Shown here: positions 4,331 through 54,778 of the stretch, piece after piece
How the letters are laid out: each line of letters starts with the position of its first letter
Position numbering within the stretch: the first letter of the stretch is position 1
From: Mermis nigrescens
Lineage: Eukaryota > Nematoda > Enoplea > Mermithida > Mermithidae
Reading direction: 5' to 3'
Assembly: GCA_036768485.1 (NCBI GenBank)
Contig: JAVLUZ010000019.1
Location: 464,889-528,888, forward strand
Length of the DNA stretch: 64,000 nt
Made by a program: the position numbers and the translations under genes
The notes under the pieces: model-generated
The model's database searches: none
Told to the model about the DNA's origin: nothing
The model's input: the letters and a program-made list of their open reading frames with translations, nothing else

Positions 4331-5619
<1,289 letters not shown>

Positions 5620-21999: not shown

Positions 22000-22018
22000 T
22001 ATTATTACAATACACATT

Positions 22019-25982: not shown

Positions 25983-26858
25983 ATGGGTCGTAAAGTGAAA
26001 TTGGCTTCGGATAAAGTGTGCAAATGCCCGAAATGCGACGAAGCGGTCGACCCGAATTCCAAGGGGATTCAATGCGACCTTTGCCACTGTTGGTTTCACA
26101 CGGCTTGCGTAGGTTTGAACGACGCCCAATACAGCGTCTTGGCACTGTTGGACCAGCTGTTTCTCTGCCCGATGTGCTTACCGGTTGGTAAGAAACTTTT
26201 GACAGTGGAGCAGAAAGTTTCCACTTTGGAAAATCGCTTCGACTCTCTCGAAGCATCTATTAAAGAACAGTTGGACTCTTTAGCCAAGCAGGTCACCCAA
26301 TCGCAGGCACCGCGTTTCACGGCTCCTAATTTTGCGGCACCTAACTTCGCGCCTATGAGGCCGCCGCGGATGGCCGATATCGACATCAACAAAGTGGTCG
26401 TTTCGGCAGTGAAGGACGCCTTGGAGGCAGATTCCAAGAAAACCACCGTCGTCCTGGAGAATTTCGTTCCCATTGGCGACGACAGCAGCTTGGAGGACGA
26501 CGTGAAGCAGTACGTCACCACCGCCGGGTTCGATCCCAAAAAAATCGTCGGCATTCGGCGCTCCGGCCCGGAGGTCAAATCGTACAAGGATGGCACCACC
26601 TTGCCCCGCATCATCAAGGTCAAGTGCGACTCGGAGTCCTCCAGGGCCGAGTTGATTCAGTTGGCCACCAAATACGCGGATAAGGGGCGTAAATCCAAAA
26701 TCTACGCCCGGCCGGATCGCACCTGGCAACAACGTGAGGCTCTCCGTCGATTGAATGCTGATTTGAAGGAAAAACGGGACGCGGGCGAGGAAAATTGGTT
26801 TATTGACCGTAACTCGTATGAATTGAAACAATATAAAGTGCGCATGCCTCGCCCTTAG
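25983..26858 (+). CDS. LINE 3 ORF1: PHD-finger protein, GC-rich codons
   Basis: 291 residues from ATG. The N-terminal PHD-like finger (CPKC, CDLC, HTAC, CPMC) is shorter than in LINEs 1 and 2. It is followed by a coiled-coil-like segment (VEQKVSTLENRFDSLEASI), a proline/alanine spacer (APNFAAPNFAPMRPP), and the conserved tail KIYARPDRTWQQREALRRLN and KRDAGEENWFID. The codons are strikingly GC-ended compared with its own ORF2 and with the other LINEs, hinting at a separate compositional history. It ends at UAG (26856-26858), with the frame open into ORF2. Confidence 0.85.
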   Translation: MGRKVKLASDKVCKCPKCDEAVDPNSKGIQCDLCHCWFHTACVGLNDAQYSVLALLDQLFLCPMCLPVGKKLLTVEQKVSTLENRFDSLEASIKEQLDSLAKQVTQSQAPRFTAPNFAAPNFAPMRPPRMADIDINKVVVSAVKDALEADSKKTTVVLENFVPIGDDSSLEDDVKQYVTTAGFDPKKIVGIRRSGPEVKSYKDGTTLPRIIKVKCDSESSRAELIQLATKYADKGRKSKIYARPDRTWQQREALRRLNADLKEKRDAGEENWFIDRNSYELKQYKVRMPRP

Positions 26859-29931: not shown

Positions 29932-30439
29932 AAAGAGTTGATACAGTAACTGACGAACTTTTAAAATTATACAAAATAAACAACCTTTATTTTTTACAGA
30001 AACCTGTCCTACGAATAAACACCTCGCAATACTTCGCGATAAAAAACACATCGGTGGCAAAAACCCCCTCTTTCAAATAAAAATCTTCTGTAGTCTGTTT
30101 CAGACTTCTTTGGACTTGTTCACAATGCGTCAATGTTAAGCAAAGCACATTAAATATCGATAAGAATAATTTAAAGCAGCTAATCTGTTGTAATAAGAAT
30201 TTAGTCAAAAATGGCCCGTTTGGAGTGTAACAGACATTAGTAATTTCGGTTCACTTCTGAGTGTAACAGACATTAGTAATTTCGGTTCACTTCTGTCACG
30301 CTAGAAAATTATTTGACCTATCTTAATTTAGTCAATAGATGGAAAATAATAAAATAAGGTTTACCCGGAAACAACCCATTTTTGAGGGTGCACATCTGCT
30401 CTAAGAATAACTGGTTTGGTTTGCCAGGACACTTTGTAA
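29932..30439. other. Spacer before the Gypsy element; includes a 36-bp tandem duplication
   Basis: No gene. A 36-bp unit starting gagtgtaacagacattag is perfectly duplicated at 30223-30258 and 30259-30294. The block 'ggcccgtttggagtgtaacagac...cacgctagaaaa' resembles 49387-49447 ('ggccgtttggaatggaacagac...cacgctaaat'), on the other side of the Gypsy element. The last four bases (GTAA, 30436-30439) are the Gypsy target duplication. Confidence 0.55.
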
Positions 30440-31499
30440 TGTAACTGCGAGAGTTACACGGTAGGCGAACCTGCCTTAGCAGTTCGCGATAGCCATTACA
30501 TAGCCAATACTAGTAGCTGTCTATGACGGTGCACTGTGGGCTATGCCTTCGGTCTTCCCATTATTTCCCCAAATTTTCAACAATAAAAAACAATTAGATA
30601 CTTGTCCGGTATCGTAGAGTTAAGTGTATGATAATAGTAATTGTTTAATGCATACCGCTTACGTGAATCGAGAACATTCGATCTGAGATAAAAGTCATTT
30701 CACTATTATGTTTAATTGATCGTTGTTTTTATTGTACTGTAATGGTCCTTGAGGCCAGTGTACTGAACGTTGTGTTGGAGTCTGGCGTTTTTTGGCGTTT
30801 TCGTTTTGCCAGTCGTACGTGTACATATTCCGTACGTTTACGTTTTTCTTTTTGCTTGTTTCCCGGCTATAGGCCGTGTGTTCTTCGTCGAATAAAAATA
30901 TAGAAAACCAACCCAGTGGTTTTGGTTATACCGAGGGTTAGGTCGGCCACCATCCCTTCGTCGAGGATTTCCACCCGTTTAGTGGACTGATAGGTAAATT
31001 CCGTATGATAGTTTATTTTATTCGAAAATCATATTTTATTTCTCAAGCCAAAAATTGATCAAAAATATTATTTAATCTTTAGGGATGATTGATCAGCATA
31101 GAGCTCGTTGTTGTTGTTTTCATTGTTCAGCGTGCTACACAAATTAGGAACCAAAAACATTTCTGATCAGGTACTGATTGAAAACAAGTTAAATTACAAC
31201 TTGAGCTTGAGATAGGTCAACTGACCTCCGCGGCAAATTCCGAGACTAGGTAGGTAGCCTTAGGTCTTAGGGCGTAGCTGCTGAGATCACCCGACGAAAA
31301 GCAGCCAGCAATATTAGGGCTGAGGGGATCGAAGCCGTAAGGTCTGTAAGGGTCCAAAGATCGAAAGCCATCCAGAGCCGCGCGATCGGGGCCAGCACTA
31401 AGCGCAGACTTAAGTACCTACGTACCTAGGTAAATCTCGAAGGCAAATGTATCCGCCCTGTGCCGATTCTCAGTAGGCATAGACGGCTCTACATTTACA
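30440..31499 (+). repeat. 5' LTR of the Gypsy element
   Basis: It starts TGTAACTGCGAGAGTTACA, which is itself a 7-bp stem hairpin, and ends ATTTACA. The outermost bases TGTAA/TTACA form the short inverted repeat typical of LTRs. AATAAA-type signals occur near 30585 and 30890 (gaataaaaata). No difference from the 3' LTR was seen on base-by-base reading. Confidence 0.95.
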
Positions 31500-31500
31500 T

Positions 31501-31518
31501 TGGATCGTTCCCTCCTTT
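31501..31518 (+). other. Putative primer-binding site
   Basis: TGGATCGTTCCCTCCTTT starts one base after the 5' LTR, with the TGG expected to pair with a tRNA 3' CCA. I cannot name the tRNA from memory with confidence. Confidence 0.55.
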
Positions 31519-31664
31519 AGGCTGCTAGCTACAGCCGAGCTGATCAATCATCGTAAAATTATTTTTCGATCCAAAAATTTATCATTTTGGCCATCTAAGA
31601 ATGTGTAACATTTTGTTCACCTTTGTTGTTGTATCGACCGCGATCGTGGCAGTGCGCAATTTAA

Positions 31665-31670
31665 GTAAGC
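31665..31670 (+). promoter_or_regulatory. Candidate splice donor in the Gypsy leader
   Basis: GTAAGC following 'aattta a' in the untranslated leader (31500-32086). It could pair with the acceptor ahead of ORF3 (39866-39867) to make a subgenomic mRNA, as retroviral env messages are made. The position is suggestive only. Confidence 0.35.
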
Positions 31671-32086
31671 GTCCGTGGTAAAGATTTTGTGTATCGTGGT
31701 AAAGTCATCGTTATTTTTCTATTTCCGTCGAAATTTTTATCGACGAAGGCAGCTCTCACGCTCGCATTTTTCTATAAACGTCGACCCACAGGCGACGATT
31801 CATCATTTTTCTCTCTTGACGACGAAATTCCGTCATTTAGGTGTTTACCTACCTGTTTTTCTAACCACGTACACGTTCTTGCGCATTAGGCTTAGTCCTA
31901 CCTGTTTTCGATCATTTCACGTCTGGTATATCTTACTTCACGTAAGGAAGTACTATTTACGTGGAAAAACCTGTTTTTCGGATCGACAAAGGCCAAATTC
32001 GAAACATTTATTTTGGGGAATAATTTCGACGTACTGAAATTTACTTTACCCAAGGTCACATTTTTCGACATTTTTGATATCTAAAA

Positions 32087-33040
32087 ATGGCAGGAAAAAA
32101 GGTTTTGCGGACACCGCCCGCTAAATTGAAAAAACCTTCTACGCCACCTACTTCAACTTGCCAATTACCTACCGCGCCTGTTGACTCTAATAGCGCGAGT
32201 AATTCTGCGAGTAATGACACAATTACGAAAGACGTAACTACTACGGCGAATAATGATAAATTACCCGCGTCACTAAATGCCGCGAGTAATACACAGTCCG
32301 ATGATGAATTGTTATTGACAACTGTGCGATCGCGCATTAATCAAACTTCGATAACTAGATCGGACCCTAACATTGATAATTCATCAAATCATACAATGAT
32401 TGATAATACGACTACTCATAACACAGCGAATAATCCTGAAACCAGTTCGGAACGCGAAAATCCCGATTCTGACGTCGAAAGTAATCATAGTCACAGCATA
32501 AATGCCGACCAAGAGCGTGCTAATGCTAATGCGACTAATGATCTTCTTTTGAAAGCTCTACAAGCTATTCATTTACAATTTTCGGATCTTTCTACGCGCT
32601 TTGAACAAGATAAAAAGGCAAATGCGGATGAAATGCGTAAACTGCGTTTGGAGCTAAGCACTATGCTTAAACCCCAACCAGTTCTGAATCGCATAGAGAG
32701 TAATCCATCTGAGCGCGTTAACCACTCAATCGATAGCGCAAATTTTTCTGAATTCAATGCACATACTGTGAATTGTGCGCAAAGTACGCATCATGCATCC
32801 TCACTATTGTCTACTAGCAACAGAGCATCAAATTCACGCTCACCTTCGGAAACCGTTCCTGAAAATATAACTCAAAGTTGTACAAATCGCGCGCCTGTGA
32901 TGTCTAATTTGTCACAGAATCCTTTAAACACGGGTTTTGTCACGCCCAGTAGTGGTCAATATATAATAATCATTAATATATTCACTTGGGTCACTCCGCG
33001 TATTGTACGTCTGTCGAGCCCCGTAACAATAGTAATATAA
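32087..33040 (+). pseudogene. Gypsy gag 5' part, interrupted by a TRIM-like element
   Basis: The frame opens at an ATG (32087). About 280 residues belong to the element: a lysine/proline start, a long N/S/T/D-rich low-complexity region, and a coiled-coil-like stretch (LLKALQAIHLQFSDLSTRFEQ...MRKLRLEL). At 32938 the frame runs into the LTR of the inserted TRIM-like element, and the final residues come from that LTR. After the insertion the gag sequence resumes at 34010, but stops follow (for example near 34126), so the gag N-terminal region is broken in this copy. It is probably a Gag matrix-like segment of a kind found in large Gypsy elements. Confidence 0.6.
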
Positions 33041-34005
33041 TTCCTTAGTTAATATAATACTCCGCGTGTCTCTGTGCACGTCAGGCGAGTTCAATCAATA
33101 ATTCTTAGGTCAACATACTTCGACCACCTACCAGGCTGACCTATATGTTCGTTTATAGTCACCAGCTCGGACTGAGCTGTCTTGCGGATTGTGCAGCTGT
33201 GTATATTATCGCGCGCACACGCATTAATAAAACCGGCGCTATTGGGCGAACCCAATAGCCTTTATCAGCGCTGACTCCTCACTTAGCAGTTTGACGTGCT
33301 AAGCTCGGACCGGTTCCCTTCAGATGTTATGTCCCTTCAATATATGCGTTGAATTCCTGTTGTTCTAACGTGCGCATCAAGTGTCAATGGATTACTGTAG
33401 TAGCGTATGATCGTTTCTACCTGACACCTCCCTCCTTAGCTTTGATCGTCCTCGATCAATAATAGCTGCTACAGACTCCACAAGATATGTGACTATCCCA
33501 CCGCTGCCACCAAATATGTCACGCCCAGTAGTGGTCAATATATAATAATCATTAATATATTCACTTGGGTCACTCCGCGTATTGTACGTCTGTCGAGCCC
33601 CGTAACAATAGTAATATAATTCCTAAGTTAATATAATACTCCGCGTGTCTCTGTGCACGTCAGGCGAGTTCAATCAATAATTCTTAGGTCAACATACTTC
33701 GACCACCTACCAGGCTGACCTATATGTTCGTTTATAGTCACCAGCTCGGACTGAGCTGTCTTGCGGATTGTGCAGCTGTGTATATTATCGCGCGCACACG
33801 CATTAATAAAACCGGTGCTATTGGGCGAACCCAATAGCCTTTATCAGCGCTGACTCCTCACTTAGCAGTTTGACGTGCTAAGCTCGGACCGGTTCCCTTC
33901 AGATGTTATGTCCCTTCAATATATGCGTTGAATTCCTGTTGTTCTAACGTGCGCATCAAGTGTCAATGGATTACTGTAGTAGCGTGTCGTCATTTCTACC
34001 TGACA
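32938..34005 (-). mobile_element. TRIM-like mini LTR retrotransposon inserted in gag
   Basis: Two 489-bp direct repeats (32938-33426, 33517-34005) surround only 90 bp, with a 4-bp target duplication GTTT (32934-32937, 34006-34009). Ends are TGTCA...TGACA. Read on the minus strand, the internal part starts four bases after the LTR with TGGTGGCAGCGGTGGGAT, a good tRNA primer site. It finishes with AAGGAGGGAGG, a polypurine tract against the next LTR. There is no coding capacity, so its mobility must come from another element's proteins. The two LTRs differ at about six positions, four of them clustered near 33410-33420 / 33986-33994. Confidence 0.88.
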
Positions 34006-34209
34006 GTTTGCAAACCAGTAGCAAAACTCTCTGGGTTTTTCGGAAAATATACTCTTATGATTGTGCAGCTCGCCGGTATCGATTTTGCAGACGTCACGAT
34101 CTCGACCTTCGCTGTCTTTAAATCGTAATGCGCCTTCTTTCGTACCTAGCTCTTCTACTACGAACGCGCAGCAGCAATTAAATCCTCCTCTGCTGCAATA
34201 TTTTCCACC

Positions 34210-34533
34210 TCAAGGCGAAAATTTATCTAATAGCTAGTACCTAATCCTATAAATGTGGAAATACCACTTAATAATAATATTTTGCATTCTTCCAATATCG
34301 AAATGCAACCTGTTGAGATAAATCTATCTGGCATTAACACCGAATCTGCACCTCCACCTGAATCGTCTAGTAGGAGAAAACATGTCAAATTCTCTGACGA
34401 CAGCTCATCTAGTAGCTATGATCGCCCGCGCAGTCGTCGCTCGCGCCGCAAGGGTCGATCGCGCAGACGACGTCATCGGCATAGTTCAGGTTCTTCATCT
34501 GAAAGCTCTCGTGGTGACTCCGCGTCTTGCTGA
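34210..34533 (+). pseudogene. Gypsy gag SR/basic segment, frameshifted
   Basis: An open segment with a P/E/S stretch followed by an arginine-serine-rich tract (DDSSSSSYDRPRSRRSRRKGRSRRRR, read at 34398-34485). The frame stops at TGA 34531-34533. The capsid-like frame continues one base over, starting around 34520, so either one base was lost or gained here or a frameshift is used. Its role, by analogy, is RNA binding within Gag. Confidence 0.5.
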
Positions 34534-34534
34534 T

Positions 34535-35758
34535 TCCTTGAATCGCGGACCATTTTTGCAGCAAATGCAATTTGCAATTGCTAATAAAAAATTTTTTGAT
34601 GGCGATAAATCGGATATGAAAGCATATTTTGCGGAATTTGAATCGCTTGCCAATACCTATGATATTGACAAAGCTGATCGTTTAAAATTCGCTACTGGAT
34701 TTCTTGATCCTTATGCTTTGCGTTTATACCGTTCGTTACCTGCTGACATACAACAATCGTATTCAAAAACGAAACAAGCGCTAATAGCCGAATTTTGTCC
34801 AATGGACACCGGTGCGCTCTTTAATCGTTTTTTGTCACACAAACAGCAGCCTAACGAATCGGTTAAAGCTTATTATCTCTCGCTTCGCGAAGAATTAATT
34901 AAGTCGGATCCTTACCTTGAAATTGATTCGCCACATTTCAATAATTTAATGCGACATCAGCTAAAAGAAGGTTTATTACCGCACATTTCGAAAGAGGCAT
35001 ATCACAAAAAACCTAGAGCATCATTAGCTGAATTTTTGGATAATGCGCTAAGCGCTGAATTTGCTAACAAAGAATTTGAGGATAAAAAGGCAGTAACGCC
35101 TTATGTATCGGTAACAGCTGCTCCAGTAGGCAGCGCAGTACCTAAAGATACTCCTCGCGTATCTAACCAAACTGATTCAAATCGCTCACGTTATAAAACG
35201 TTTCATCGCTCATCGCGTGCTGAGAAACCAGAAAGTTCTTCTCGTAAATATTGCACCTTTTGCAAGCGCATAGGTCACATTTATGAGGAATGTTTCACGC
35301 GTCAAAGGCAAGAAGTAACTAATAATACTAATCAGAACAATCAAGCAGAGCGAAATAATAATTCTATGGCTCGCAATTGCAGCCAATCGCGTTCTTTTCG
35401 CGTCAAAATCGTTCGCCATCGCGTTCGAATTCGCAAAATAGACATCGATCTCAATCACGATATCGTAACCCTAGTCAACATCGCTCATTTAACTATGCGA
35501 ATAATGATAATCGCTTTGAATCAAAGCAATCACGATCGAATTTTCGGCAAAATCGTAATGATTATTACCAAAATTCGCGTGCTAATTATCAAAATTCGCG
35601 TTACAACAATCGCTATAATAATCAATCGCGCCAAAATACACCTTTCGTGCAATTTCCAAATGAACAACGTGGGACATACTATAACTCGAACTATCGCAAC
35701 GACAATAATTTTAATCGCCCTTATGTTACATATACCGCAGATAACCAGCCCACCATGA
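34535..35758 (+). CDS. gag: Gypsy Gag: capsid-like domain and zinc knuckle
   Basis: Structural protein of the retroelement particle. From about 34535 the frame encodes a retrotransposon-gag-type helical domain: FFDGDKSDMKAYFAEFESLA, then ALRLYRSLP, YSKTKQALIAEF, FLSHKQQPNESVKAYYLSLR, and LKEGLLPHISKEAY. A CCHC zinc knuckle CTFCKRIGHIYEEC (C-x2-C-x4-H-x4-C, 35253-35294) precedes an N/Q-rich basic tail. The frame stays open to 35758, but the residues after about 35400 look non-native, since the natural continuation is in the pol frame one base back. I place the functional end of Gag near 35400. Upstream open sequence in this frame (34382-34530) is shadow sequence. Confidence 0.85.
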   Translation, partial: SLNRGPFLQQMQFAIANKKFFDGDKSDMKAYFAEFESLANTYDIDKADRLKFATGFLDPYALRLYRSLPADIQQSYSKTKQALIAEFCPMDTGALFNRFLSHKQQPNESVKAYYLSLREELIKSDPYLEIDSPHFNNLMRHQLKEGLLPHISKEAYHKKPRASLAEFLDNALSAEFANKEFEDKKAVTPYVSVTAAPVGSAVPKDTPRVSNQTDSNRSRYKTFHRSSRAEKPESSSRKYCTFCKRIGHIYEECFTRQRQEVTNNTNQNNQAERNNNSMARNCSQSRSFRVKIVRHRVRIRKIDIDLNHDIVTLVNIAHLTMRIMIIALNQSNHDRIFGKIVMIITKIRVLIIKIRVTTIAIIINRAKIHLSCNFQMNNVGHTITRTIATTIILIALMLHIPQITSPP

Positions 35759-38700
35759 ATGCGCCCCCACCGCAGCCAACCCCTACATCTCCTCATGATG
35801 TAAACACGGTTACTGCGAAAGGGCCAGAATCTAGCGCGCGTCCTAATTTATTCGCGTCGCAAGAATTTCTCGAAGAGTACGAACGTTTACAACGTCGTCT
35901 TGCAACTTACGAGAAAATAAATCTACCTCCGTCTAAGATCTTAGATCCTAATATTCCTATTGTAAGTCACGCTGGAACTAATTTACCCACTATTCTCGTC
36001 AAAGTTCATGGCGTTGAGGTACCTGCTCTCATAGATACAGGTTCACAGGTCACCATGATGACCACATCTGCATTCTTGCGTCTTGGTTTTAATTTACCAC
36101 CTAAACAAGTTTCGCAAGTTGTGCATGGTGTAGGCGAAATTACTGCAGTCGTTCGCTATAAAGTAAATATGACTCTAACCATCGCGGAACAATCTATTAC
36201 TACCTCAGTTGCTATAATTGATCATTTGCCGGAAGACATGCTTTTAGGATATGATTTTTGCGAATCCGCACTCATGTGGGTTAATCCTATTGAGCGTTGT
36301 GCTTTTATAAACGGCATAAAGGTTAATTTACTCTCATCTCATGAAAAATTGCAATTTCGCGCGAAACCCAACGCAACCACCTCTGGTGTTGTGTGTGTGC
36401 ATGTTTCGTTGCCCGAGCCTGTTATAATACAACCTAGGCATGAATTAATTACACCTGGCTATATAAGTCATGGTTCTTGCAATTTTGATTTCGCACTATT
36501 CGAACCAAATCCTGATTTTATGGAGAAAACATCACTTTTTGTTGCTCCATCTATAGTCGATGCTTCACAACCTTTAATACCTGTTCGCGTCTGTAACATC
36601 TCTAAAGCGCCAATTCGCATTGACTCTGGTGACATAATAGGTTCTTTAACCACTGATGCCGAGGTTGTGTCACATGTTTCATCTTTGGATGATAGGACAC
36701 CAGAACTTTTCGCATCAATAAATAAAGCTTTAAACGGCTCCGCCGTTGATTCTAGACAACAGCAACAAATTCGTGAATTATGTCTAAAATACGACTCAAT
36801 TTTTGCACTAAAAAACGAACCTCTCGGTCGTACCCCCTTGATGAAACATCATATCGATACAGGGGATAATCCACCCGTTGTGGGAAAAACTTATCGTGTC
36901 GAACATTCTAGAAGGGAATCTATGCAGAAAATTATAAATGAAATGCTTGCGGATAAAATTATTCGACCTACAACTAGCCCATGGGCAAGTCCATTATTTC
37001 TCATTGGAAAAAAGGACGGTTCCCTAAGGCCAGTCGTCGATTATCGACGGTTAAATGACGTTACTAAAACACAAGTTTATCCTCTTCCGCAACTAGACGA
37101 TTATTTTGATACTTTAGGCAGTGCTGCATATTTTAGCACACTAGATTTGAAATCTGGATACTGGCAAATCCCACTCGATAATAAATCTCGCGAAAAAACA
37201 GCATTTATATGTCCTGTTGGTCATTATGAATTTGAAGTTTTACCTTTTGGGTTAAAGAATGCGCCCGCAGATTTTCAAAGACTAATGGAGCTCGTGCTCG
37301 CAGGTCTAAATTGGAAATCTTGTCTCGTTTACATCGATGACATAATTATCTTTTCACGCACTTTCAAAGAACATTTAAAAGATCTCGAAAATGTCTTTAT
37401 TGCTCTTAAAAAGGCAAACTTACGTGTAAAGCCTGATAAGTGCCATCTTGCGCATGCAGAGGTAAAATTTCTTGGCCATAGCATAAGTGCAATGGGCATC
37501 GCTCCTGACATGTCCAAAGTCGCGGATTTAATCTCGTTTCCCGTACCAAAAACCGTAAAATCCTTGCAGAAATTCCTTGGTTTAGTCCAATGGTTTAAGA
37601 AATTCGTTAAAGATCTCGCTAAAATTGCTAAACCGTTATTCCATCTTCTGCGTAAAGATGTCGAATTTTGCTGGAAGGCTGAACACCAAACCGCCTTTGA
37701 GCTTCTGAAGAAAGCATTTACGTCCCCACCTATTTTACAATTACCGAAATTCGATGATGAGCACCAATTTATTTTAACAACTGACGCAAGTAACTATGCG
37801 TTAGGTGCTATTTTGACACAAAAACACTTACCATCAAAAAATCGTTTTATTCTTAGCTACGCTAGTCGCGTACTAAATTCTGCCAAATGTAATTATGCTA
37901 CTTCGGAAAAAGAAGCGTTAGCGGTAGTGTGGGCCATCAAGCATTATCGACATTATCTTTACGGTAAAAAATTCATTGTCGAAACTGATCATCAAGCGTT
38001 AACCTGGCTAGTAAACGTAAAAGACCCATCGAGTCGATTACGCCGTTGGGGTCTCAAATTACAGGAATACGAATATGATATCGTTTACGTTCCTGGTGCA
38101 TATAATTGCGCAGCTGATCTTCTCTCACGTCATCCTAAATATGATCATGCAGAACGAAAATATAAAGTCGAGCGCAAAAATATCGTTAACATCGCAAATT
38201 TAGAATCAGAAGATTCTGAGTCAGATGATGAATCGGTTCCACCTGACCGATCGCGCGATAACGCGCCTACTGCACCAATTAATCATCCAAATGCGCAAAA
38301 TAATGTTCCTACTGCGCAAACCGATCCTACTAATTCTAAACCACCTACATTTCGCGAACGCTTGTTACTTACCGATGCCGAAAAAGCTGAAATGCTAACA
38401 CCTGCGCGTTTACTCGCTGAGCAACGTGCAGATGACGAATTGCATAAAATTCGCATCGCATTGAACGACTTAACAACGAAAAAATATCGTGACGAATTTT
38501 TTCTCGTAAACGATGTACTTTTTCGTCGTTTCCAACCTAAGCGCTCACCAACTGTCGTTCATCAAATAGTCATACCCAAATCTTTGCGTCGCTTCATATT
38601 AACGGAATTTCATGACTCTATTTTCGGAGCTCATTTTTCATCGCGCAAAATCTTGCCCGCCATTCAAATGCGTTATTGGTGGCCGCGCATGGAAAATGAT

Positions 38701-39813
38701 GTGATCGCGTGGTGTCGGAATTGTGATGTGTGCTTACAACGTAAGGTCGCATTAAATTCCACATCCGTTCCGCTGCAACCAATCGAAGTATCCGCACCCT
38801 TTGAACTCATTGCGTGCGATTGTTTGCATATGCCGCGATCCCCCTCCGGAAATGACCAAATTGTAGTTTTTATGGATTATTTCACAAAATACGTGGAAGC
38901 TTTTGCTGTTTCTGATATCAAAGCAACAACTATCGCAAATTTATTATTACGAGAAATTATACCACGTTATGGAGTCCCCAAGAAATTTTTAACAGATCAG
39001 GGGTCAAATTTTACATCTACCCTTATTTCGGAAGTCTGTAAATTATTAAACGTTCAAAAAATATTTACAACCCCATATCACCCCCAGTGTGATGGGTTGG
39101 TGGAACGTTATAATCGAACTTTGATTGATGGTTTGTCGAAGCTGAGTGCGCGTTCCCAGTATGATTGGGAGCAATTTTTACCTTTTGCATTATTTGCATA
39201 CCGCGCAACTCCGCAATCATCGACTAATATATCTCCTTTCGAAATGCTTTATGGTCGCGAACCAGCATTTCCTCTCGACACTTTACTAATAAATGACTTC
39301 GTGATAAATCCGAATTTACCTTCCGTTGCGGAAAAATATGTCATTGATTTAAAGCTGACTTTACAAGACTTGCATGAAATCGCATCTCAAAATTTAACGC
39401 AAGCGCGTAAGCAGCAGAAATCACAATATGACAAGTCCGTAACGCAAACAAATTTTTCTCTTTCGGATATAGTCTATCTTAATAATACCTCAGTCATTCA
39501 ACCTGAAATAGGTAAATTATCACCCAAGCGTGTGGGTCCATACCGAATTATTGACTTACCTACGCCTGAAACTGCGAAAATCGCATATGTCTATAACCCT
39601 CTTATCGTTCATCACGTTCATAGGAATAGACTTCTGCCTGAGCCTAAACTACCTTATTCTGACTTAATTGTGGAAAAACACGCGTACGTCCCTGGCGATT
39701 TTGTGTTGGTAAAATTACCACATCGCCCTCTTGCCCCGGCAGTTGTCATAAGTTTTGAGGATTTACCGGGCAGGGAACAAAAGCTAAGGACTGCGCGCCT
39801 ATACGTTTATTAA
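35377..39813 (+). CDS. pol: Gypsy Pol: protease, reverse transcriptase, RNase H, integrase
   Basis: Intact 1,478-codon frame in the -1 phase relative to Gag. The overlap (35377-35758) and a common RS/N-rich theme suggest entry by -1 frameshifting near 35380-35410. Domains by residue of the open frame: R/N/S/Q-rich start; aspartic protease LIDTGSQVTMM (about 218); RT with LRPVVDYRRLND (550) and catalytic YIDDIIIF (652); RNase H TTDASNYALGAIL (803); integrase zinc region H...H and C-x2-C ending CRNCDVC (about 1080-1116); D,D-35-E core with CDCLHM, TDQGSN (D1207) and GLVERYN (E1243); and a C-terminal GPY/F motif (VGPYRII). The integrase-after-RNaseH order defines Ty3/Gypsy. No disabling change was seen. 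Confidence 0.95.
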   Translation: MQPIAFFSRQNRSPSRSNSQNRHRSQSRYRNPSQHRSFNYANNDNRFESKQSRSNFRQNRNDYYQNSRANYQNSRYNNRYNNQSRQNTPFVQFPNEQRGTYYNSNYRNDNNFNRPYVTYTADNQPTMNAPPPQPTPTSPHDVNTVTAKGPESSARPNLFASQEFLEEYERLQRRLATYEKINLPPSKILDPNIPIVSHAGTNLPTILVKVHGVEVPALIDTGSQVTMMTTSAFLRLGFNLPPKQVSQVVHGVGEITAVVRYKVNMTLTIAEQSITTSVAIIDHLPEDMLLGYDFCESALMWVNPIERCAFINGIKVNLLSSHEKLQFRAKPNATTSGVVCVHVSLPEPVIIQPRHELITPGYISHGSCNFDFALFEPNPDFMEKTSLFVAPSIVDASQPLIPVRVCNISKAPIRIDSGDIIGSLTTDAEVVSHVSSLDDRTPELFASINKALNGSAVDSRQQQQIRELCLKYDSIFALKNEPLGRTPLMKHHIDTGDNPPVVGKTYRVEHSRRESMQKIINEMLADKIIRPTTSPWASPLFLIGKKDGSLRPVVDYRRLNDVTKTQVYPLPQLDDYFDTLGSAAYFSTLDLKSGYWQIPLDNKSREKTAFICPVGHYEFEVLPFGLKNAPADFQRLMELVLAGLNWKSCLVYIDDIIIFSRTFKEHLKDLENVFIALKKANLRVKPDKCHLAHAEVKFLGHSISAMGIAPDMSKVADLISFPVPKTVKSLQKFLGLVQWFKKFVKDLAKIAKPLFHLLRKDVEFCWKAEHQTAFELLKKAFTSPPILQLPKFDDEHQFILTTDASNYALGAILTQKHLPSKNRFILSYASRVLNSAKCNYATSEKEALAVVWAIKHYRHYLYGKKFIVETDHQALTWLVNVKDPSSRLRRWGLKLQEYEYDIVYVPGAYNCAADLLSRHPKYDHAERKYKVERKNIVNIANLESEDSESDDESVPPDRSRDNAPTAPINHPNAQNNVPTAQTDPTNSKPPTFRERLLLTDAEKAEMLTPARLLAEQRADDELHKIRIALNDLTTKKYRDEFFLVNDVLFRRFQPKRSPTVVHQIVIPKSLRRFILTEFHDSIFGAHFSSRKILPAIQMRYWWPRMENDVIAWCRNCDVCLQRKVALNSTSVPLQPIEVSAPFELIACDCLHMPRSPSGNDQIVVFMDYFTKYVEAFAVSDIKATTIANLLLREIIPRYGVPKKFLTDQGSNFTSTLISEVCKLLNVQKIFTTPYHPQCDGLVERYNRTLIDGLSKLSARSQYDWEQFLPFALFAYRATPQSSTNISPFEMLYGREPAFPLDTLLINDFVINPNLPSVAEKYVIDLKLTLQDLHEIASQNLTQARKQQKSQYDKSVTQTNFSLSDIVYLNNTSVIQPEIGKLSPKRVGPYRIIDLPTPETAKIAYVYNPLIVHHVHRNRLLPEPKLPYSDLIVEKHAYVPGDFVLVKLPHRPLAPAVVISFEDLPGREQKLRTARLYVY

Positions 39814-39850
39814 ATGGCTCTAAAACAGCACATGCCGTACCATTATCTAA

Positions 39851-39867
39851 TGTTTTTCCTTTTGCAG
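39851..39867 (+). promoter_or_regulatory. Splice acceptor just ahead of ORF3
   Basis: tgtttttccttttgcag: a long pyrimidine run ending in CAG, with an upstream branch-point-like 'ttatctaat', five bases before the ORF3 ATG at 39872. The layout matches a retroviral env acceptor and predicts a spliced subgenomic mRNA for ORF3. Confidence 0.6.
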
Positions 39868-39871
39868 ACCC

Positions 39872-42148
39872 ATGGCTGCAGAAGGCACCCCAAGCAAAGA
39901 GGCATTGCTGGAGGCAGCTGGTCGCCGATGCAAATTCGAAGGGCGTGATCCCGCGTCCTTAGATGAGTTTCGTTCGGCGTTGACCAGTATGGCTTTAGAG
40001 CGGGGTTTGGTTGTACCAGACCCGCTGCCACAAAACGACGATAGTCGTGTTAGCGGTTTACAAGCATTCACTGCTAGATGGGTTAAGCACAAAGCAGCAC
40101 ATAAAATTAAAAATCATACCAAGCGTATAAACGATCAACAGCTCTGGTGGGAGAATAGATTTCGTAGATTTCCTTTGGTAACCCCTCGCGTACCAAGGAA
40201 CAGGCCTATGCCTACGGTCATAGTCTCCGACGACCAGAAGTCGTTTGCCGCCATTTTGGCGTTAACTCAACCATCAAATTTGACTAATGGCACACTATTT
40301 TTAGGCTACGATTCTGAATTTGTTAATGACAGGAAAGGCAGACACTATAAGACCTGGGACTTGCGTTTTCAGCAATTATGTCCCACCTACCAGGACCTCC
40401 ATGGCCCATTCGTACGCTACGTCCAAGTTGCGAGCGCGAACGGTCATGTGTTCTGCTGGGACCTGGCGAAGTTCCCGCAACCTCCGTTCGGGCTTCACCA
40501 GTTGCTCGAAACACGTTTGCCAAATGTATATATGGTTTGTTACGATCCTACGCAAGATCGACTTGCGTATTTTCACGTATACGGTCCAACTTTTGAGGAA
40601 ATTTTGGCAATCCCAGATGCAGAAATTCGCAATCAACTGCACTGGAAGGATCCATTCATCGCTAATTTTATCGATATTCAGCCATTAGCGAGAGAATTTA
40701 CTCGTCGTTTTCGCATTACAGCGCGTTCACACACACTGAAGCGCTTGGCTGAGTTCCTATTTGACATGTATCTTGACCCGAACGCGCCTGATAACTTCGG
40801 ACAGGCGTGGAGCTTACCTTTAACTCGGGACATGCAGAATTATTTAGTGATGGACGCCCTTATAACTATCGATGTTTTTATATTGATAGAAGGGACATCG
40901 CAAAATAATCGCATTACTGACGATAGAAAGCCTATGTCAGTCTCATTTGTAGGCGATGAATTGCACATTAAGGCCACTGGCCCAAAAGCCAGAGTGCGTA
41001 TACCATTGTCGACTAGCAAACCACCGCAAGGACAGTCGACCAGCACAGCTGCTGAAGCTGAAGTAGAAGTTGACTCGAATGGCGAAGAATTAATTAGAGT
41101 TGAGGACTTCTATGGCCCGGTTCCGCAACTTCCAGCGGCCATAGCAGCAGCCACCACCGTTGCCTCAGTAACGGAAGCGTTGGCTCACACTAATGTTTTT
41201 GACAATCCTGACCTACAAGTTCAGGATTCGCAGGCCGTTGCCGACTCAGTTTCGGGCCCGGCTTATGCACCTGATACCGAACCAAAATCTAAACCAACCA
41301 GTTCGAGTACACCTGCATCTGCGTTTTCTTCGCAAACGGACATTCCATATGATTCACCTATGGTCGATGTAGAACCGATCTCCACTGAAGACGATGATTT
41401 ATCTCCTAAGCGTTTAGTTATGGCGTTATCCGACACCGAGGCGGAAAGACAAGCTAATTTGTCACCACCGCGTTCTACACGCGTGGCATTGGCTAGAAAA
41501 GGGGCTGTTACCGTTTCGCAACCGATTGTCTCACAATCGCTTGCGGCGGACAAACAAGCGCCCTTGGGCATCAGTTCGCTCGGACCTTTGCCGACTTCAC
41601 AGCCGGGTTGGGTAGAGCGTGACTCTGAGCCCGATGTGATCATGACTGAGATTATAGGTTTTCCGCCGGTGACACAACAAATTTTACCCGCGCACGAAGT
41701 ACCACAAGTAGCATTGTATACGCAAGTCGCGACTCATTCCGCGCCACAAGGCGTGTCGGCACCAGATGCTCGTTTTATGGCTCCTATGGCCATGACGGGT
41801 GTGTCGAGTACTGTGGCGACTATTCACCCACAGGCAATTCAAAGTCAGTCATCAAATAGGGAAGTCGCCATACCCCCAATGATGCAAGCTATTCGCGAAC
41901 GTATGGCCACGAATGAAAGCGCGAGAGTGCAAAGCCGCTCGCGCTACGTTCAGCATTTTTTCACCATGATGGAAAATATGACGCGAGAACCTCCGTGCAC
42001 TGTCGTATCAGTTGTATTGCACGAGTTACATGACTGTTTGGGTGAAGTTGAAGGAACGCGTCTATATGATCAGCTGGTTGAAGCTGCACAAGTGTACTTC
42101 GACCGAGTGTATGCAATCCATTTGCAGCACGCGACTTCAACTGATTAG
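39872..42148 (+). CDS. Gypsy ORF3: RNase D/WRN-type DEDDy 3'-5' exonuclease with disordered tail
   Basis: 758 residues from an ATG directly behind a splice acceptor, in the place where env would be. Residues about 140-340 read as a DEDDy exonuclease of the RNase D/WRN family: motif I GYDSEF (D147, E149), then RYVQVAS and HVFCWDL (beta strands), motif II CYDPTQDRLAYF (D229), FIDIQPLAREF, and HTLKRLAEFL. The final motif is WSLPLTRDMQNYLVMD, with the Y324-x3-D328 signature. All expected catalytic acids are present. Residues 350-700 are S/T/P/E-rich and probably disordered. The C-terminal 80 residues look helical. There is no signal peptide or membrane segment, so it is not an envelope protein. 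Likely activity: 3'-5' trimming of RNA or DNA ends (inferred). The stop is TAG at 42146-42148. Confidence 0.8.
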   Translation: MAAEGTPSKEALLEAAGRRCKFEGRDPASLDEFRSALTSMALERGLVVPDPLPQNDDSRVSGLQAFTARWVKHKAAHKIKNHTKRINDQQLWWENRFRRFPLVTPRVPRNRPMPTVIVSDDQKSFAAILALTQPSNLTNGTLFLGYDSEFVNDRKGRHYKTWDLRFQQLCPTYQDLHGPFVRYVQVASANGHVFCWDLAKFPQPPFGLHQLLETRLPNVYMVCYDPTQDRLAYFHVYGPTFEEILAIPDAEIRNQLHWKDPFIANFIDIQPLAREFTRRFRITARSHTLKRLAEFLFDMYLDPNAPDNFGQAWSLPLTRDMQNYLVMDALITIDVFILIEGTSQNNRITDDRKPMSVSFVGDELHIKATGPKARVRIPLSTSKPPQGQSTSTAAEAEVEVDSNGEELIRVEDFYGPVPQLPAAIAAATTVASVTEALAHTNVFDNPDLQVQDSQAVADSVSGPAYAPDTEPKSKPTSSSTPASAFSSQTDIPYDSPMVDVEPISTEDDDLSPKRLVMALSDTEAERQANLSPPRSTRVALARKGAVTVSQPIVSQSLAADKQAPLGISSLGPLPTSQPGWVERDSEPDVIMTEIIGFPPVTQQILPAHEVPQVALYTQVATHSAPQGVSAPDARFMAPMAMTGVSSTVATIHPQAIQSQSSNREVAIPPMMQAIRERMATNESARVQSRSRYVQHFFTMMENMTREPPCTVVSVVLHELHDCLGEVEGTRLYDQLVEAAQVYFDRVYAIHLQHATSTD

Positions 42149-43114
42149 TGTGGCCCTTGACCGCACAGTCTTTGGCTGATGTGGATCGTCCACCCGCACC
42201 TCGATTTATCAGCAAATTGAGTGTGTTTAACCGATTGTTTTATCCCAATCAATATTTTGTGCGCATACGTTTCTTTATTACAACGGGAATGATGTTGTAC
42301 GAAGTGCCGTTAGAGTATTTGGTGGTGCACCCGCACCTTGATGCACCAACTGAAGTGTCTGATGGTGTTGCTCATCAGGTTCGCCCGGAGTTATATCCAC
42401 ACAGGATGTCTCCAGCGCCAGATCACATGGCACCCATCTTAATATTGGCACGCCAGATGGTCGATATTTTCGATACTTTCCGAGAATTTCAAGCATTATA
42501 TGATTTGGAGTATCGACACATGACGGTCTTTTCTTCCATAGACGCCATGCGCGCTACAGCGCTTTTGGAATTCCTGGACAGGAAGTTCCACTTCTTTGCG
42601 TACGCCTACGGAAATCCCGGAATACACACCTGGGCGTGGGGGTTGCGGGGGGTATGCACCCCCCCAGAAACCAAAATACCCCCCCCAGAAATCAAAATAC
42701 CCCCCCAGAATTCAATTTTTGAAAATTTTTTTCGTTTTTTTCGCAATTTTTTGATGCCAATGGATAGTGCTTGATGAGAAACGTCGAAAAATGGTGTTTT
42801 TATCGCCATACCACCATTTTTAAGGCCATTTTTCGACCTTCAAAAAAATCTTGCACCCCCCCCCCAGAATTTTCTTGCTGCCCACGTATGCCGGAATAGG
42901 CTGGCGCATGGTGGAGCAGTTACGTCGCATGTTGGCAGTAGCGTTCCTTGGCGAATCTTATACTCCTTCGCCAAGTGAGGCTTTTCCGGAATTCCCGGAT
43001 TTAACAGCACGAATTGAAAGTCCTCATGTTTTACATAACATGTTTCGGCAAATTCGGCTGGCAACTGATCCGCCGCTCGAAGTTCCGGCTCAGTTCGATC
43101 GTTTTAGAGGTTGA
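42145..43114 (+). pseudogene. Gypsy ORF4: unknown protein, split by a MITE
   Basis: The frame opens in the -1 phase exactly at the ORF3 stop (ctgattagtg). It has no early AUG, so it may be a fused extension of ORF3 by -1 shift or reinitiation. About 159 residues (FISKLSVFNRLFYPNQYFVRIRFF is its start region; later ALLEFLDRKFHFFAYAYGN) precede the MITE at 42625. The same frame resumes after the duplicated 8-mer at 42899 (GWRMVEQLRRMLAV) and stops at TGA 43112-43114. The MITE adds foreign codons and frame loss in this copy. I do not recognise a domain. Confidence 0.5.
42625..42890 (+). mobile_element. hAT MITE, family A, inserted in Gypsy ORF4
   Basis: 266 bp. Starts CACACCTGGGCGTGG, ends GCTGCCCACGTATG, and is flanked by a perfect 8-bp duplication CCGGAATA (42617-42624, 42891-42898). 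ORF4 sequence on both sides is in the same original frame, so the insertion point and target duplication can be read directly. This is the clearest family A copy. Confidence 0.93.
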
Positions 43115-44285
43115 CAAAAATTGGTCTTTTTCTTAAAGCATCGAATTCAAGGCGAATTAGAAAAAATTCGTAGACAAAGGCAACAGGCATCCTTGCAGGA
43201 CCCTAGCGGATCCGTAGCGAGCCTTGAATTGCTAGAAGTCGACCTTTCCTTGGAAGCACAAATCGAAATGCGTAGAACTCGCATGACGATCGAGAAACGC
43301 TGATCGTGAGAATTTGGCTACGGAAATGCCACGGCGTGTGACGAAATTACGCGCCGCCGGTTCTCTTACTGAAGCTTCCGAGGTTCGTCATATGCCAGAA
43401 GACAAACATAAGGCGAAATTGAATAGATTTTATGACACCAAGTCAGAGCACGCTTTGCGTCGACTGAAAAACTTGGAAAAGCAACGAGTCAGAAGACTCG
43501 TTCAAGCTGAAGTTGCAGCTAAATTAAAAGCGCGTTTAGGCCCAAAGGGATCGAGGCGGCAAGAACCGCAATCATCCCGGCAACGCTATGCTGCAACGCA
43601 TCACCGTTCACAATCGCAAGCACAACAGCAAACGCAAGTAAAACCGCATATACAGCAATACACAAGACCGCAAACCCAACCGCGGCAACAACAGCATTTT
43701 ACGGAATCGCGTGAGCGTTCCGAGGCGTATTCACAGGCCGATGCTGGTCATCTGTCGCGCTCGCGACAGCAGCAGCCTTACGAATATCGCCGCCAACCAC
43801 AGTCGAACCGCGGAACTCATCAGGACCGGTCACAATCCCGTCAACGGCAGCAATGGGATCAATCGTATCGCTCTCCGTTGGAACAAAGCCAACCAGCCAC
43901 CGGGGATTATCAGCCACAACCTCGACCGGGTCCACTTTTGCCGAAACCGTGGCCTGTTAATCAACAACAACAGCGTCCACGCGAACCTTCTCGCCAACGA
44001 ACTTACGGTTTTACGCCGGAGCAATTATTTACTCCGACGCCACCCATACCGCGTCGTTATGCTGACGACTACGAGGACGATGACGATTTTGAGGACGACG
44101 ATCGACCCGTCGATCCACACCAACGCTTACGCCAACATATGTACGGGCGTAGGCAATCGCCATATCAATATCGTGAGCGTTCGAATACGCGTCGCGAACC
44201 GGAATCCGATCAGGAATATTTTCAACGACAACGACGTCGCGGAAAATCGTATGGCTCGAAGGCCAATTACCGCGATCAATATTAA
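43115..44285 (+). pseudogene. Gypsy ORF5: basic, glutamine/arginine-rich protein, frame broken
   Basis: 43115-43303 continues the ORF4 frame after one TGA and encodes a charged helical stretch (ELEKIRRQRQQ). It stops at TGA 43301-43303. One phase over, 43314-44285 encodes about 323 residues: a Lys/Arg-rich coiled region (RRLKNLEKQRVRRLVQAEVAAKLK), then a long Q/R/S/P-rich low-complexity region with many Arg-Gln and Ser-Arg pairs, and an acidic patch (DDYEDDDDFEDDD) near the end. The composition suggests an RNA-binding, disordered protein; this is inferred. Originally it may have been one frame with ORF4. No known family is recognised. Confidence 0.5.
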
Positions 44286-45080
<795 letters not shown>

Positions 45081-45081
45081 C

Positions 45082-45090
45082 GTGGGGGAG
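45082..45090 (+). other. Polypurine tract of the Gypsy element
   Basis: GTGGGGGAG immediately precedes the 3' LTR and would prime plus-strand DNA synthesis, as in other LTR elements. Confidence 0.7.
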
Positions 45091-46150
45091 TGTAACTGCG
45101 AGAGTTACACGGTAGGCGAACCTGCCTTAGCAGTTCGCGATAGCCATTACATAGCCAATACTAGTAGCTGTCTATGACGGTGCACTGTGGGCTATGCCTT
45201 CGGTCTTCCCATTATTTCCCCAAATTTTCAACAATAAAAAACAATTAGATACTTGTCCGGTATCGTAGAGTTAAGTGTATGATAATAGTAATTGTTTAAT
45301 GCATACCGCTTACGTGAATCGAGAACATTCGATCTGAGATAAAAGTCATTTCACTATTATGTTTAATTGATCGTTGTTTTTATTGTACTGTAATGGTCCT
45401 TGAGGCCAGTGTACTGAACGTTGTGTTGGAGTCTGGCGTTTTTTGGCGTTTTCGTTTTGCCAGTCGTACGTGTACATATTCCGTACGTTTACGTTTTTCT
45501 TTTTGCTTGTTTCCCGGCTATAGGCCGTGTGTTCTTCGTCGAATAAAAATATAGAAAACCAACCCAGTGGTTTTGGTTATACCGAGGGTTAGGTCGGCCA
45601 CCATCCCTTCGTCGAGGATTTCCACCCGTTTAGTGGACTGATAGGTAAATTCCGTATGATAGTTTATTTTATTCGAAAATCATATTTTATTTCTCAAGCC
45701 AAAAATTGATCAAAAATATTATTTAATCTTTAGGGATGATTGATCAGCATAGAGCTCGTTGTTGTTGTTTTCATTGTTCAGCGTGCTACACAAATTAGGA
45801 ACCAAAAACATTTCTGATCAGGTACTGATTGAAAACAAGTTAAATTACAACTTGAGCTTGAGATAGGTCAACTGACCTCCGCGGCAAATTCCGAGACTAG
45901 GTAGGTAGCCTTAGGTCTTAGGGCGTAGCTGCTGAGATCACCCGACGAAAAGCAGCCAGCAATATTAGGGCTGAGGGGATCGAAGCCGTAAGGTCTGTAA
46001 GGGTCCAAAGATCGAAAGCCATCCAGAGCCGCGCGATCGGGGCCAGCACTAAGCGCAGACTTAAGTACCTACGTACCTAGGTAAATCTCGAAGGCAAATG
46101 TATCCGCCCTGTGCCGATTCTCAGTAGGCATAGACGGCTCTACATTTACA
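45091..46150 (+). repeat. 3' LTR of the Gypsy element
   Basis: 1,060 bp, same length as the 5' LTR and with no difference found on reading. It is followed by the target duplication GTAA (46151-46154). Confidence 0.95.
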
Positions 46151-46154
46151 GTAA

Positions 46155-47799: not shown

Positions 47800-49075
47800 A
47801 GCTGAAAAAATTTCTTTTTTAGTCTCGAACCCTTTACACTAAAATGATCACAAATCGAGAAATATTGCATTAGAAGAGAAAACAAATTTAGCTTTTGAGA
47901 TATTATAGCGTTCTACATTATAAAAGCAATTGGAATGCACAGAAACCAAAATTGACTTAGATTAGCTTCAGGACACGAAAACAGTAAAAAACTCCGTATA
48001 ATTTGCACTTTTGTGCAACAACCATTGAGTTTAAAGAAATTTTAATGTCACATTCTTAATCTACAACTCGGGGGCAACATTTTCAAAACTGAAATCGGCC
48101 CTCCGCAGATTGTTTGATACCCAACGCTCTGGGCGGAAAAGTGCTTCTCGGTGTAAACTTTACACTTGTGCAAATAACGCAATATTGGGTGTATAGAAAC
48201 AAAATAAACCAGGATCTGTAACACTGAGCTCAGGGCACATTTTAGGCATAATTAACATGTTCCGCCAACTTAGCGGAGTAGCTAAAGAAATTTCGTTTTT
48301 CGTCCCGAACAATTTACACTAAAACGATCACAGTTCAAGAAATATTGCATTAAAAGAGAAACAAAATTAGTCTTTGAGATATTTTAACCCTCTACATTAT
48401 AAAACCAATTGGACTGCACAGAAACCAAAATTAAGTTAGTTAAGCTGAAAACACGCAAGGAGTAATAAATCCGTATACTTTACACTTTTGCGCAACAACC
48501 ATTGAGTGTAAAGAAATTTTAATATCACATTCGTAATCTACAACTCGGGAGCAACATTTAAAAAAATAAAATTGGCCCTCCGCAAATTGTTTGATACTCA
48601 ATGCTCTGGGCGGAAAAGTGCCTCTCAGTGTAAACTTTACACTTGTGCTAATAACGCAATATTGGGTGTATAGAAACAAAATAAACTAGGATCTGTACCG
48701 CTAAGGTCAGGATACATTTTAAGCATACTTGGCATGTCCCGTCTACTTAGCGGAGTAGCTTGAGAAATTTCGTTTTTCGTCTTGAACCTTTTACACTAAA
48801 ACGATCACAGATCAGGAAATATTGCGTCAAAAGAGAACAAAATTGATCTTTGAGATATTGTAATTGTAACCCTCTACATTCTAAAACCAATTGGATTGCA
48901 CAGAAACCAAAATTGAGTTAGATAAGCTGAAAACACGCAAGGAGCAAAATATCCGTATACTTTACATTTTTGTGCAACAACCATTGAGTGTAAAGAAAGT
49001 TTAAGTCCAGCTTCGTAATCTACAGCTCGGGGGCAACATTTTTAAAAGAATTGGCCCTCCGCAAATTATCTTATT
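47800..49075. repeat. Tandem repeat, period about 480 bp, about 2.7 copies
   Basis: Units start near 47800, 48285 and 48765. Landmarks repeat in each: 'ttacactaaaa(t/c)gatcaca' (47834, 48314, 48791), 'aaccaaaattga(c/g)ttag', 'caacaaccattgagt', 'ggccctccgca'. The palindromic GTGTAAACTTTACAC appears in the first two (about 48154 and 48630). The third unit breaks off near 49070. Identity between units looks high but is not perfect. No protein is encoded. Confidence 0.8.
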
Positions 49076-51470: not shown

Positions 51471-51735
51471 CACACCTGGGCGTGGAGGGTTTGGGGATAT
51501 GCACCCCCGAGAAACCAAAATACCCACCCCTAGAAATTTATATACTCCCCCAGAATTCAATTTTTAAAATTTTTTTCCCGTTTTTTCGCAATTTTTTGAT
51601 GCAAATAGATTGTGCTCAACGAGAAACGTCGAAAAATTGTGTTTTTACGCCACACCACCACTTTTAAGGCCATTTTTTGACCTTTGAAAAATCTTGCACA
51701 CCCCCCCCCCAGAATTTTCTTGCTGCCCACGTATG
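51471..51735 (+). mobile_element. hAT MITE, family A, with perfect 8-bp duplication
   Basis: 265 bp, CACACCTGGGCGTGG to GCTGCCCACGTATG, with the flanking duplication GTTCTCAT (51463-51470, 51736-51743). Almost the same sequence as the 42625 copy, indicating a recently active family. Confidence 0.92.
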
Positions 51736-53113: not shown

Positions 53114-53380
53114 CATAGGTGGGCAGCACCAAAATTCTGGGGGTGGAAAAATTTCTGGAGGGGTGAAAAAATTTTTAAAGGTCAAAAAATGGTCTTAAAA
53201 GTGGTCGTATGGCGAAAAAACACCATTTTTCGACGTTTCTCATCGAGCACTATCCAATGGCATCAAAAAATTGCTAAAAAAGCAAAAAAAATTTTTCTGG
53301 GGGTATTTTGATTTCTGGGGGGGGGTATTTCAACTTCTGGCGGGGTGCATACCCCCAAACTTCCCCCACGCCCATGTGTG
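53114..53380 (-). mobile_element. hAT MITE, family A, with perfect 8-bp duplication
   Basis: 267 bp in reverse orientation, CATAGGTGGGCAGC to GCCCATGTGTG. The flanking duplication CTGACCTC is exact (53106-53113, 53381-53388). Confidence 0.92.
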
Positions 53381-53443: not shown

Positions 53444-53702
53444 CACACGTGGGCGTGAGGGGTTTGGGGGTATGCACCCCCCCCCAGAAGGCAAAATACA
53501 CAACATGAAAACCAGAATACCTCCCAGAAATCGATTTTCGAATTTGTTTAGCATTTTTCGCGATTTTAGATGCCAATGGATAGCGCTCGATGAGAAATAT
53601 CGAAAAATGGTGCTTTTTCGCCCTACCGCCATTCTTAAGACCATTTTTTGACCTTTTAAAAATTTTTACACTTCCCCAGAATTTTCTTGCTGCCCACGTA
53701 TG
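53444..53702 (+). mobile_element. hAT MITE, family A, 7/8 duplication
   Basis: 259 bp, CACACGTGGGCGTGAGG to GCTGCCCACGTATG. The flanks ctctgagc and ctctgggc differ at one base. It lies only 55 bp from the previous copy and in the opposite orientation. Confidence 0.88.
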
Positions 53703-53889
53703 CTCTGGGCCCCCAGAATCTGAAAGTCCCCTAAAAATCAATTGACCTCGGAATTCAATGTTTAATGCGATTTTTGGCATTTTGGCCGAAAAGCTACGTG
53801 CTTAAGTGGACAACAGCATACCTAGCGCATTCTTCAATGCACCAAAAATCGGCGATATCATAGAAAAATAGGATAGGTTCCTATTCTTA

Positions 53890-54550: not shown

Positions 54551-54778
54551 CAAACGTGGGCGTGGGTGGATTTGGGGCTTCTCATCCCCCAGAAGGCCGA
54601 CCCCAGTCCAGAATTCAATTTTTGAGTTTTTTTATTTTTTTGCAATTTTTTGATGCCAATATGATAGTGCTCGATGAGAAACGTTGAAAAATGCTGTTTT
54701 TTCGCCATGCCACCATTTTCAAGACTATTTTTTAACCTATTAAAAAATCTCGCTCCCAGAATTTGCTGCCCACCTATG
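54551..54778 (+). mobile_element. hAT MITE, family A, shorter diverged copy
   Basis: 228 bp, CAAACGTGGGCGTGGG to GCTGCCCACCTATG. The flanks gtgataag (54543-54550) and atgataag (54779-54786) match at 7 of 8. Confidence 0.85.

Follow-up and report, generated by a model that had tools for sequence, protein, structure and literature searches.

DEDDy exonuclease-like domains encoded by a third open reading frame (ORF3) of LTR retrotransposons have been described in Juno and Vesta of bdelloid rotifers (Rodriguez, Kenefick and Arkhipova 2017; PMC5408684). According to the passages of that report dealing with their structure, these elements possess a pol for protease (PR), reverse transcriptase (RT), RNase H (RH) and integrase (IN), a separate ORF3 behind pol with the exonuclease-like domain, and recent copies, all of which are shared by the element from the nematode Mermis nigrescens described here; apparent splicing of ORF3 is a further likeness, the rotifer ORF3s being typically derived from spliced messages. 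In contrast to its rotifer counterparts, the Mermis element resides in a nematode and has an ORF3 of about 1384 amino acids with further regions that match no family. Juno, Vesta and TelKA carry a dUTPase between PR and RT, as the same passages state, whereas the Mermis pol is without one, there being no dUTPase among the 12 Pfam families listed for it at an E-value of 1. The rotifer motif is described there as changed to DEED (PMC5408684), and the Mermis element is likened to Juno and Vesta by description only.

Terminons, the giant Athena Penelope-like elements of rotifers, resemble the Mermis element in carrying DEDDy exonuclease ORFs among others, as noted in the relevant sections of two papers (PMC5408684, PMC6431247), the second being a 2019 review that names these ORFs again; they belong to a different class of retroelements, with a Penelope-like RT. 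The RNase D/WRN/Rrp6/Mut-7 enzymes (PF01612) share with the Mermis domain the succession of DxE, D and YxxxD motifs, as well as weak profile matches, and differ from it in being cellular rather than element-borne; the domain has no significant sequence similarity to their solved members. The initial annotation of the present locus knew of no described Gypsy element with an exonuclease module, a claim to novelty that fails because the DEDDy ORF3s of Juno and Vesta had been described in the rotifer report (PMC5408684, in the passages mentioned). A search of the open-licence PMC literature, with subscription papers and preprints outside its scope, did not turn up any nematode element reported to carry a DEDDy ORF3. 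The Mermis element is probably a nematode variant of a known arrangement, occurring outside rotifers, which suggests that the association of exonucleases with LTR elements recurs in a new phylum.

Mermis nigrescens is a mermithid nematode living in insects. Repeats make up 83.98% of its assembly, and the word Gypsy is absent from the main text, as distinct from other parts, of the assembly paper (PMC10989877). The role of exonucleases in retrotransposons could then be put to the test in an animal whose mRNA-seq has been published. The stretch analysed here, hereafter the window, comprises 64,000 nucleotides.

Methods

A 211-residue query representing the domain was searched against the assembly (523,963,438 bases in 860 contigs). 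This gave 3011 first-look candidates, of which the best 150 were scored (92-100% identity to the query). Twelve copies were fetched from these 150, eleven because their frames are long and one (L020) because it contains a stop codon; 40 further copies were chosen to spread across the 150, and the 24 copies of alignment A1 were drawn from the fetched copies for variety. Catalytic residues were tabulated in 58 rows corresponding to 52 places, six places being doubled (L001/L009, L002/L021, L003/L010, L004/L022, L006/L023 and L008/L024); the table leaves out the partial copies L055 and L056, and L005, which is the window itself.

A loose DEDDy pattern (D.E...D...YxxxD, with similar spacing) was written after the ORF had been seen. 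An independent small profile was built from five bacterial DEDDy sequences, and was compared with 2000 shuffles of each of three sequences, pooled to 6000.

Results and discussion

Organisation of the element

A Ty3/Gypsy LTR retrotransposon of 15.7 kb occupies 30440-46150 of the window. The initial assignment to this class is borne out by a pol with PR, RT, RNase H and integrase in order, by LTRs with TG...CA ends and by a short target-site duplication. The 5' LTR (30440..31499, +; TGT...ACA) and the 3' LTR (45091..46150, +) are each 1060 bp long and show no mismatch, and the 4-bp duplication GTAA was read directly in the flanks at 30436..30439 and 46151-46154. A putative primer-binding site starting with TGG lies just 3' of the 5' LTR (31501..31518, +), and a purine-rich stretch adjoining the 3' LTR (45082..45090, +) would represent the polypurine tract.

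The gag core ORF (34382..35758, +; PF03732, E 3e-5) is in a frame other than that of pol, which spans 35377..39813 (+) and encodes the protease, RT, RNase H and integrase (PF13650, PF00078, PF17917, PF17921 and PF00665). The sequence VGPYRI near the C-terminus of the integrase resembles the GPY/F motif. About 1.07 kb of extra DNA in the gag region (32938..34005), missing in the single other copy compared, contains a tandem repeat with a spacing of 579, whose units are about 99% identical and are perhaps the LTRs of a nested element.

ORF3 in the window and in the family

The ATG of ORF3 lies 58 bases 3' of the pol stop codon. In the window the frame extends over 39872..42148 (+) and encodes 758 amino acids, comprising an N-terminal region, the exonuclease-like domain (residues 105-355, 251 amino acids; 40184..40936, +) and an acidic S/T-rich linker, after which it ends prematurely. 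The ORF given in the initial annotation exists, and its coordinates take in roughly the N-terminal 55% of ORF3 and no more; in many other copies ORF3 of the family is one frame of about 1384 amino acids, starting MAA(E/Q)GTPSKEAL in the unbroken frames. The remaining, C-terminal part corresponds to 42149..44285 (+), where the window has no single open frame; its counterpart in other copies consists of a conserved region of no assigned family followed by an R/Q-rich basic tail.

Behind the exonuclease domain, the window ORF3 is broken by a small deletion, an inserted C-rich dispersed repeat (42625..42887), recognised by sequence matches within the window, and further small changes. A natural end of ORF3 at 42148 was ruled out by these breaks together with the unbroken frames of about 1384 amino acids elsewhere. 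The family thus includes unbroken copies, and the one in the window is defective. The C-rich repeat is about 265 bp long, and its matches in the window include 1578-1784, 51471-51735, 53114-53380, 53444-53703 and 54608-54778.

Eleven of the twelve fetched copies have ORF3 as one frame of 1373-1421 codons, one of them overrunning the usual end and one falling short of it, and ORF3 is broken in the twelfth, L020; these copies were selected for frame length, so the proportion is no estimate of the share of unbroken ORF3s. Such an estimate, among the best-scoring places, is given by the 42 of 150 whose open frame around the domain has at least 1300 codons (hand count), the frame being shorter in the other 108, the window included. 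A stop codon falls inside the matched part in three of these 150 places, the other 147 being free of one.

Pol sequence was found 5' of the domain at all 20 loci tested (18 places, including the window), and a 3' LTR downstream of it in 5/5 copies tested. The 5' LTR was located in three of the five stretches fetched (one of them partial) and, for a fourth copy, in another stretch; that of the fifth copy was not found in the stretches examined. No difference separates the LTRs of the window copy over 1060 bases, and both LTRs of copy C44 equal those of the window; in the other subfamily, LTR identity is 99.8% and 99.5% in two copies and 99.6%, over 228 pairable bases, in a third. The presence of pol upstream and a 3' LTR downstream, together with near-identical LTRs, indicates that ORF3 belongs to the element in the tested copies and was recently copied with it. 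The window element is a recent insertion in M. nigrescens, and its family is young and present in many copies.

Catalytic motifs of the exonuclease-like domain

The three motifs reported for ORF3 in the initial annotation were confirmed, in order, within 39872-42148 (+), viz. ExoI GYDSE (D147 and E149), ExoII YDPTQDRL (D229) and ExoIII YLVMD (Y324 and D328), and all the catalytic DEDDy positions are kept as claimed, with codons at 40310 (D147), 40316 (E149), 40556 (D229), 40841 (Y324) and 40853 (D328). Shuffling the 251-residue domain 20,000 times reproduced the loose pattern 36 times, and 5,000 shuffles of the 758-residue ORF did so 83 times; these frequencies make the bare motif suggestive, not decisive.

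D147, E149, Y324 and D328 are kept in all 52 places and D229 in 51. Loss of catalytic residues among other genomic copies, which according to the initial annotation would speak against an exonuclease, is confined to L020, the sole D229 exception, in which the domain is also interrupted by a stop. Among other acidic residues, D225, beside the ExoII aspartate, is replaced by Y in one of the 52 places, and D268, which is not a DEDDy residue, by N in two. This conservation bears on the possibility that the DEDDy fold is used in ORF3 for nucleic-acid binding without catalysis, as in EXD1 and Maelstrom, which are named as inactive DEDD derivatives in a passage of the rotifer report (PMC5408684). The R/Q-rich basic tail formed by the last 324 residues of ORF3 (1061-1384), with a net charge of +22, would suit such a binding module; a non-catalytic module would need none of the five catalytic positions, and the constancy of four of them and near-constancy of the fifth make this explanation very unlikely.

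Profile and structure database searches

Of 24,736 Pfam models, PF01612 alone matches the domain. The match was obtained with 21 of the 24 copies (best E 0.0036; 0.19 for the window copy), the other three having no match. In single scans of ten copies, a match to profile positions 98-165, at 12.9-17.1 bits, was obtained for eight; the remaining two gave none. The weak matches fall on the ExoIII half of the profile. The profile check proposed in the initial annotation is thus answered in part: PF01612 is the sole family found, and all the printed scores (11.9-17.1 bits) lie below the curated cut-off of 23.6 bits. Neither the whole window ORF3 nor one unbroken ORF3 matched PF01612 in the Pfam scan. 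The domain is accordingly classed as exonuclease-like on its motifs, and is not filed as a member of PF01612, the curated cut-off not being reached.

With the five-sequence DEDDy profile, the ExoII and ExoIII segments were aligned in the right order in the best-scoring copies shown. The scores of the four copies looked up were reached by 7-11 of the 6000 shuffles and that of the window copy by 296, the best shuffle (11.1 bits) exceeding the best real copy (4.7 bits). No resemblance to DEDD enzymes of solved structure appeared in sequence searches of the PDB: a profile search with the domain gave no match at an E-value of 10, and single-sequence searches returned unrelated chains only, with no DEDDy chain among them. 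Comparison with the five DEDDy sequences by hhalign gave a probability of 2.2% over a 13-column stretch lying off the motifs. The alignment of the 24 copies has a mean column identity of 96%, and with almost no diversity in it the profile tests are weak either way.

No relative of the window ORF3, or of the exonuclease part of an unbroken ORF3, was found in a set of 5.8 billion proteins by a word-based search of limited reach. The NCBIfam scan gave only one weak and unrelated family (TGR; 3/24 copies, best E 0.089) and the PHROGs scan a single weak match, to a family whose function is unknown (phrog_2216; 18/24 copies, best E 0.11), and nothing was found in the PADLOC scan. Viral contigs scanned with the exonuclease part of Escherichia coli RNase D yielded no relative, and genome contigs scanned with the whole of this enzyme yielded 80 sequences from enterobacteria, whose close similarity made them uninformative.

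The sub-threshold scores, the PDB result and the hhalign probability would be expected if ORF3 were an unrelated protein, of a structural, env-like or gag-like nature, that resembles DEDDy enzymes by chance; the position of ORF3 in the slot of env and its apparent use of a splice acceptor are also in keeping with this explanation. Env-bearing Gypsy elements such as the errantiviruses have a spliced third ORF behind pol, as the Mermis element apparently does too. In contrast to them, ORF3 shows no env-like transmembrane architecture in the hydropathy scan, which revealed no clearly transmembrane stretch, and env was rejected on this ground: the best 19-residue hydropathy value, a borderline 1.64, falls on the ExoIII segment, which includes three acidic residues. 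No CCHC knuckle was found in ORF3 by a strict pattern. These results, the singular match to PF01612, the order and spacing of the motifs and the finding that no part of ORF3 is more constrained than this region in any of the three pairs (see below) render a chance resemblance decidedly unlikely. The assignment of the domain to the DEDDy type is made with good confidence, and the corresponding exonuclease fold and activity are predicted.

Selection along ORF3

The comparison of dN/dS across copies that had been suggested at the outset gave low values for the domain. They are 0.12 within the subfamily of the window (15 sequences), 0.07 within the other (33) and 0.08 between the two (48 distinct sequences), absolute values that are biased downward, as identities are upward, because the copies were drawn from the best-scoring 150 and several of them for long frames. 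The contrast along ORF3 and against pol is less affected by this bias. In the 12 copies in which both were read, dN/dS is 0.05-0.08 for the domain and 0.037-0.046 for a 141-residue RT-RH control. The core of the exonuclease (columns 151-300) has the lowest dN/dS along ORF3 in each of three pairs (0.03-0.05), compared with 0.11-0.27 for columns 301-750, where the domain ends with ExoIII and the linker follows, and 0.06-0.12 for a second conserved region (about residues 751-1050 of copy L009; counterpart in the window from 42149).

The core of the domain is about as constrained as RT in the sampled copies and is under purifying selection, suggesting that the domain is of importance for retrotransposition. 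The passages on the rotifer elements (PMC5408684) report no such signs of selection for their exonuclease domain. ORF3 residues 690-1060 had no relative in the set of 5.8 billion proteins, and the DNA over most of them gave one weak and unrelated Pfam match (IMS_HHH_1, E 0.17).

Expression and probable role of ORF3

Pol and ORF3 are separated by 58 bases (39814..39871, +) that resemble the end of an intron, with a branch-point-like CTAAT, a pyrimidine tract and TTTTGCAG (AG at 39866-39867), followed by ACCCATGG. The pyrimidine tract and AG are identical in the 12 chosen copies and the window, and CTAAT is present in 11 of the 12; over the 60 bases shown, there is one C/T-variable position and one change in L020, which alters CTAAT. 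At synonymous sites the two subfamilies diverge by 0.5-0.6 in the domain and by 0.22 in the RT-RH part, and by the latter measure the contrast with the conserved spacer is clear, though less sharp than the domain alone implies. The message of ORF3 is probably spliced or trans-spliced, and a passage of the rotifer report (PMC5408684) gives spliced messages as the typical source of ORF3 expression in LTR retrotransposons.

On balance, we moderately favour the view that ORF3 is a spliced third gene of about 1384 codons with a DEDDy exonuclease-like product that trims 3' ends of the element within the element's own complex. ORF3 would probably be translated from a spliced message by way of the acceptor immediately 5' of the start codon; the N-terminal third of the protein would contribute a 3'-5' exonuclease-like domain of the DEDDy type (RNase D/WRN/Mut-7-like), and its basic R/Q-rich tail would be likely to bind nucleic acid. 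The protein would most likely act in the ribonucleoprotein or particle stage of the element, where it may trim RNA of the element, or its single-stranded cDNA, at the 3' end, a role suggested by the domain and its constraint.

Mut-7 and Nibbler are DEDDy enzymes of host small-RNA pathways and show that this fold can act there, and the numerous and recent copies of the family would also accord with ORF3 being a counter-silencing factor, whose exonuclease trims or destroys host piRNAs or siRNAs directed against the element. The high conservation of the domain, with a dN/dS of 0.03-0.05 in its core, is unlike that of arms-race genes, which often evolve fast. Mut-7 is also discussed in the rotifer report, in passages where the authors do not expect a self-limiting Mut-7-like role to last and saw no clear-cut link of ORF3 with copy number in rotifers (PMC5408684). 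Counter-silencing is, on these grounds, unlikely. A second, independent capture of a DEDDy enzyme by LTR retrotransposons, in nematodes, which shields the element from the small-RNA response or edits that response and thereby enables its spread, is very doubtful; if true, it would explain the RT-like selection on a captured enzyme and the large copy number in a repeat-rich genome. Trimming of the element's own 3' ends is the role preferred here.

Sequences around the element

Just outside the element, at 47902-49047, there are direct repeats spaced about 480 bases apart. On its other side, 17610-29681 contains three units of two ORFs each, the first PHD-finger-like (by eye) and the second endonuclease/reverse-transcriptase-like; by eye, these appear to be RTE/CR1-like non-LTR retrotransposons. 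An ORF at 5143-5598 (-) resembles, also by eye, an exon of a CDK8-type protein kinase.
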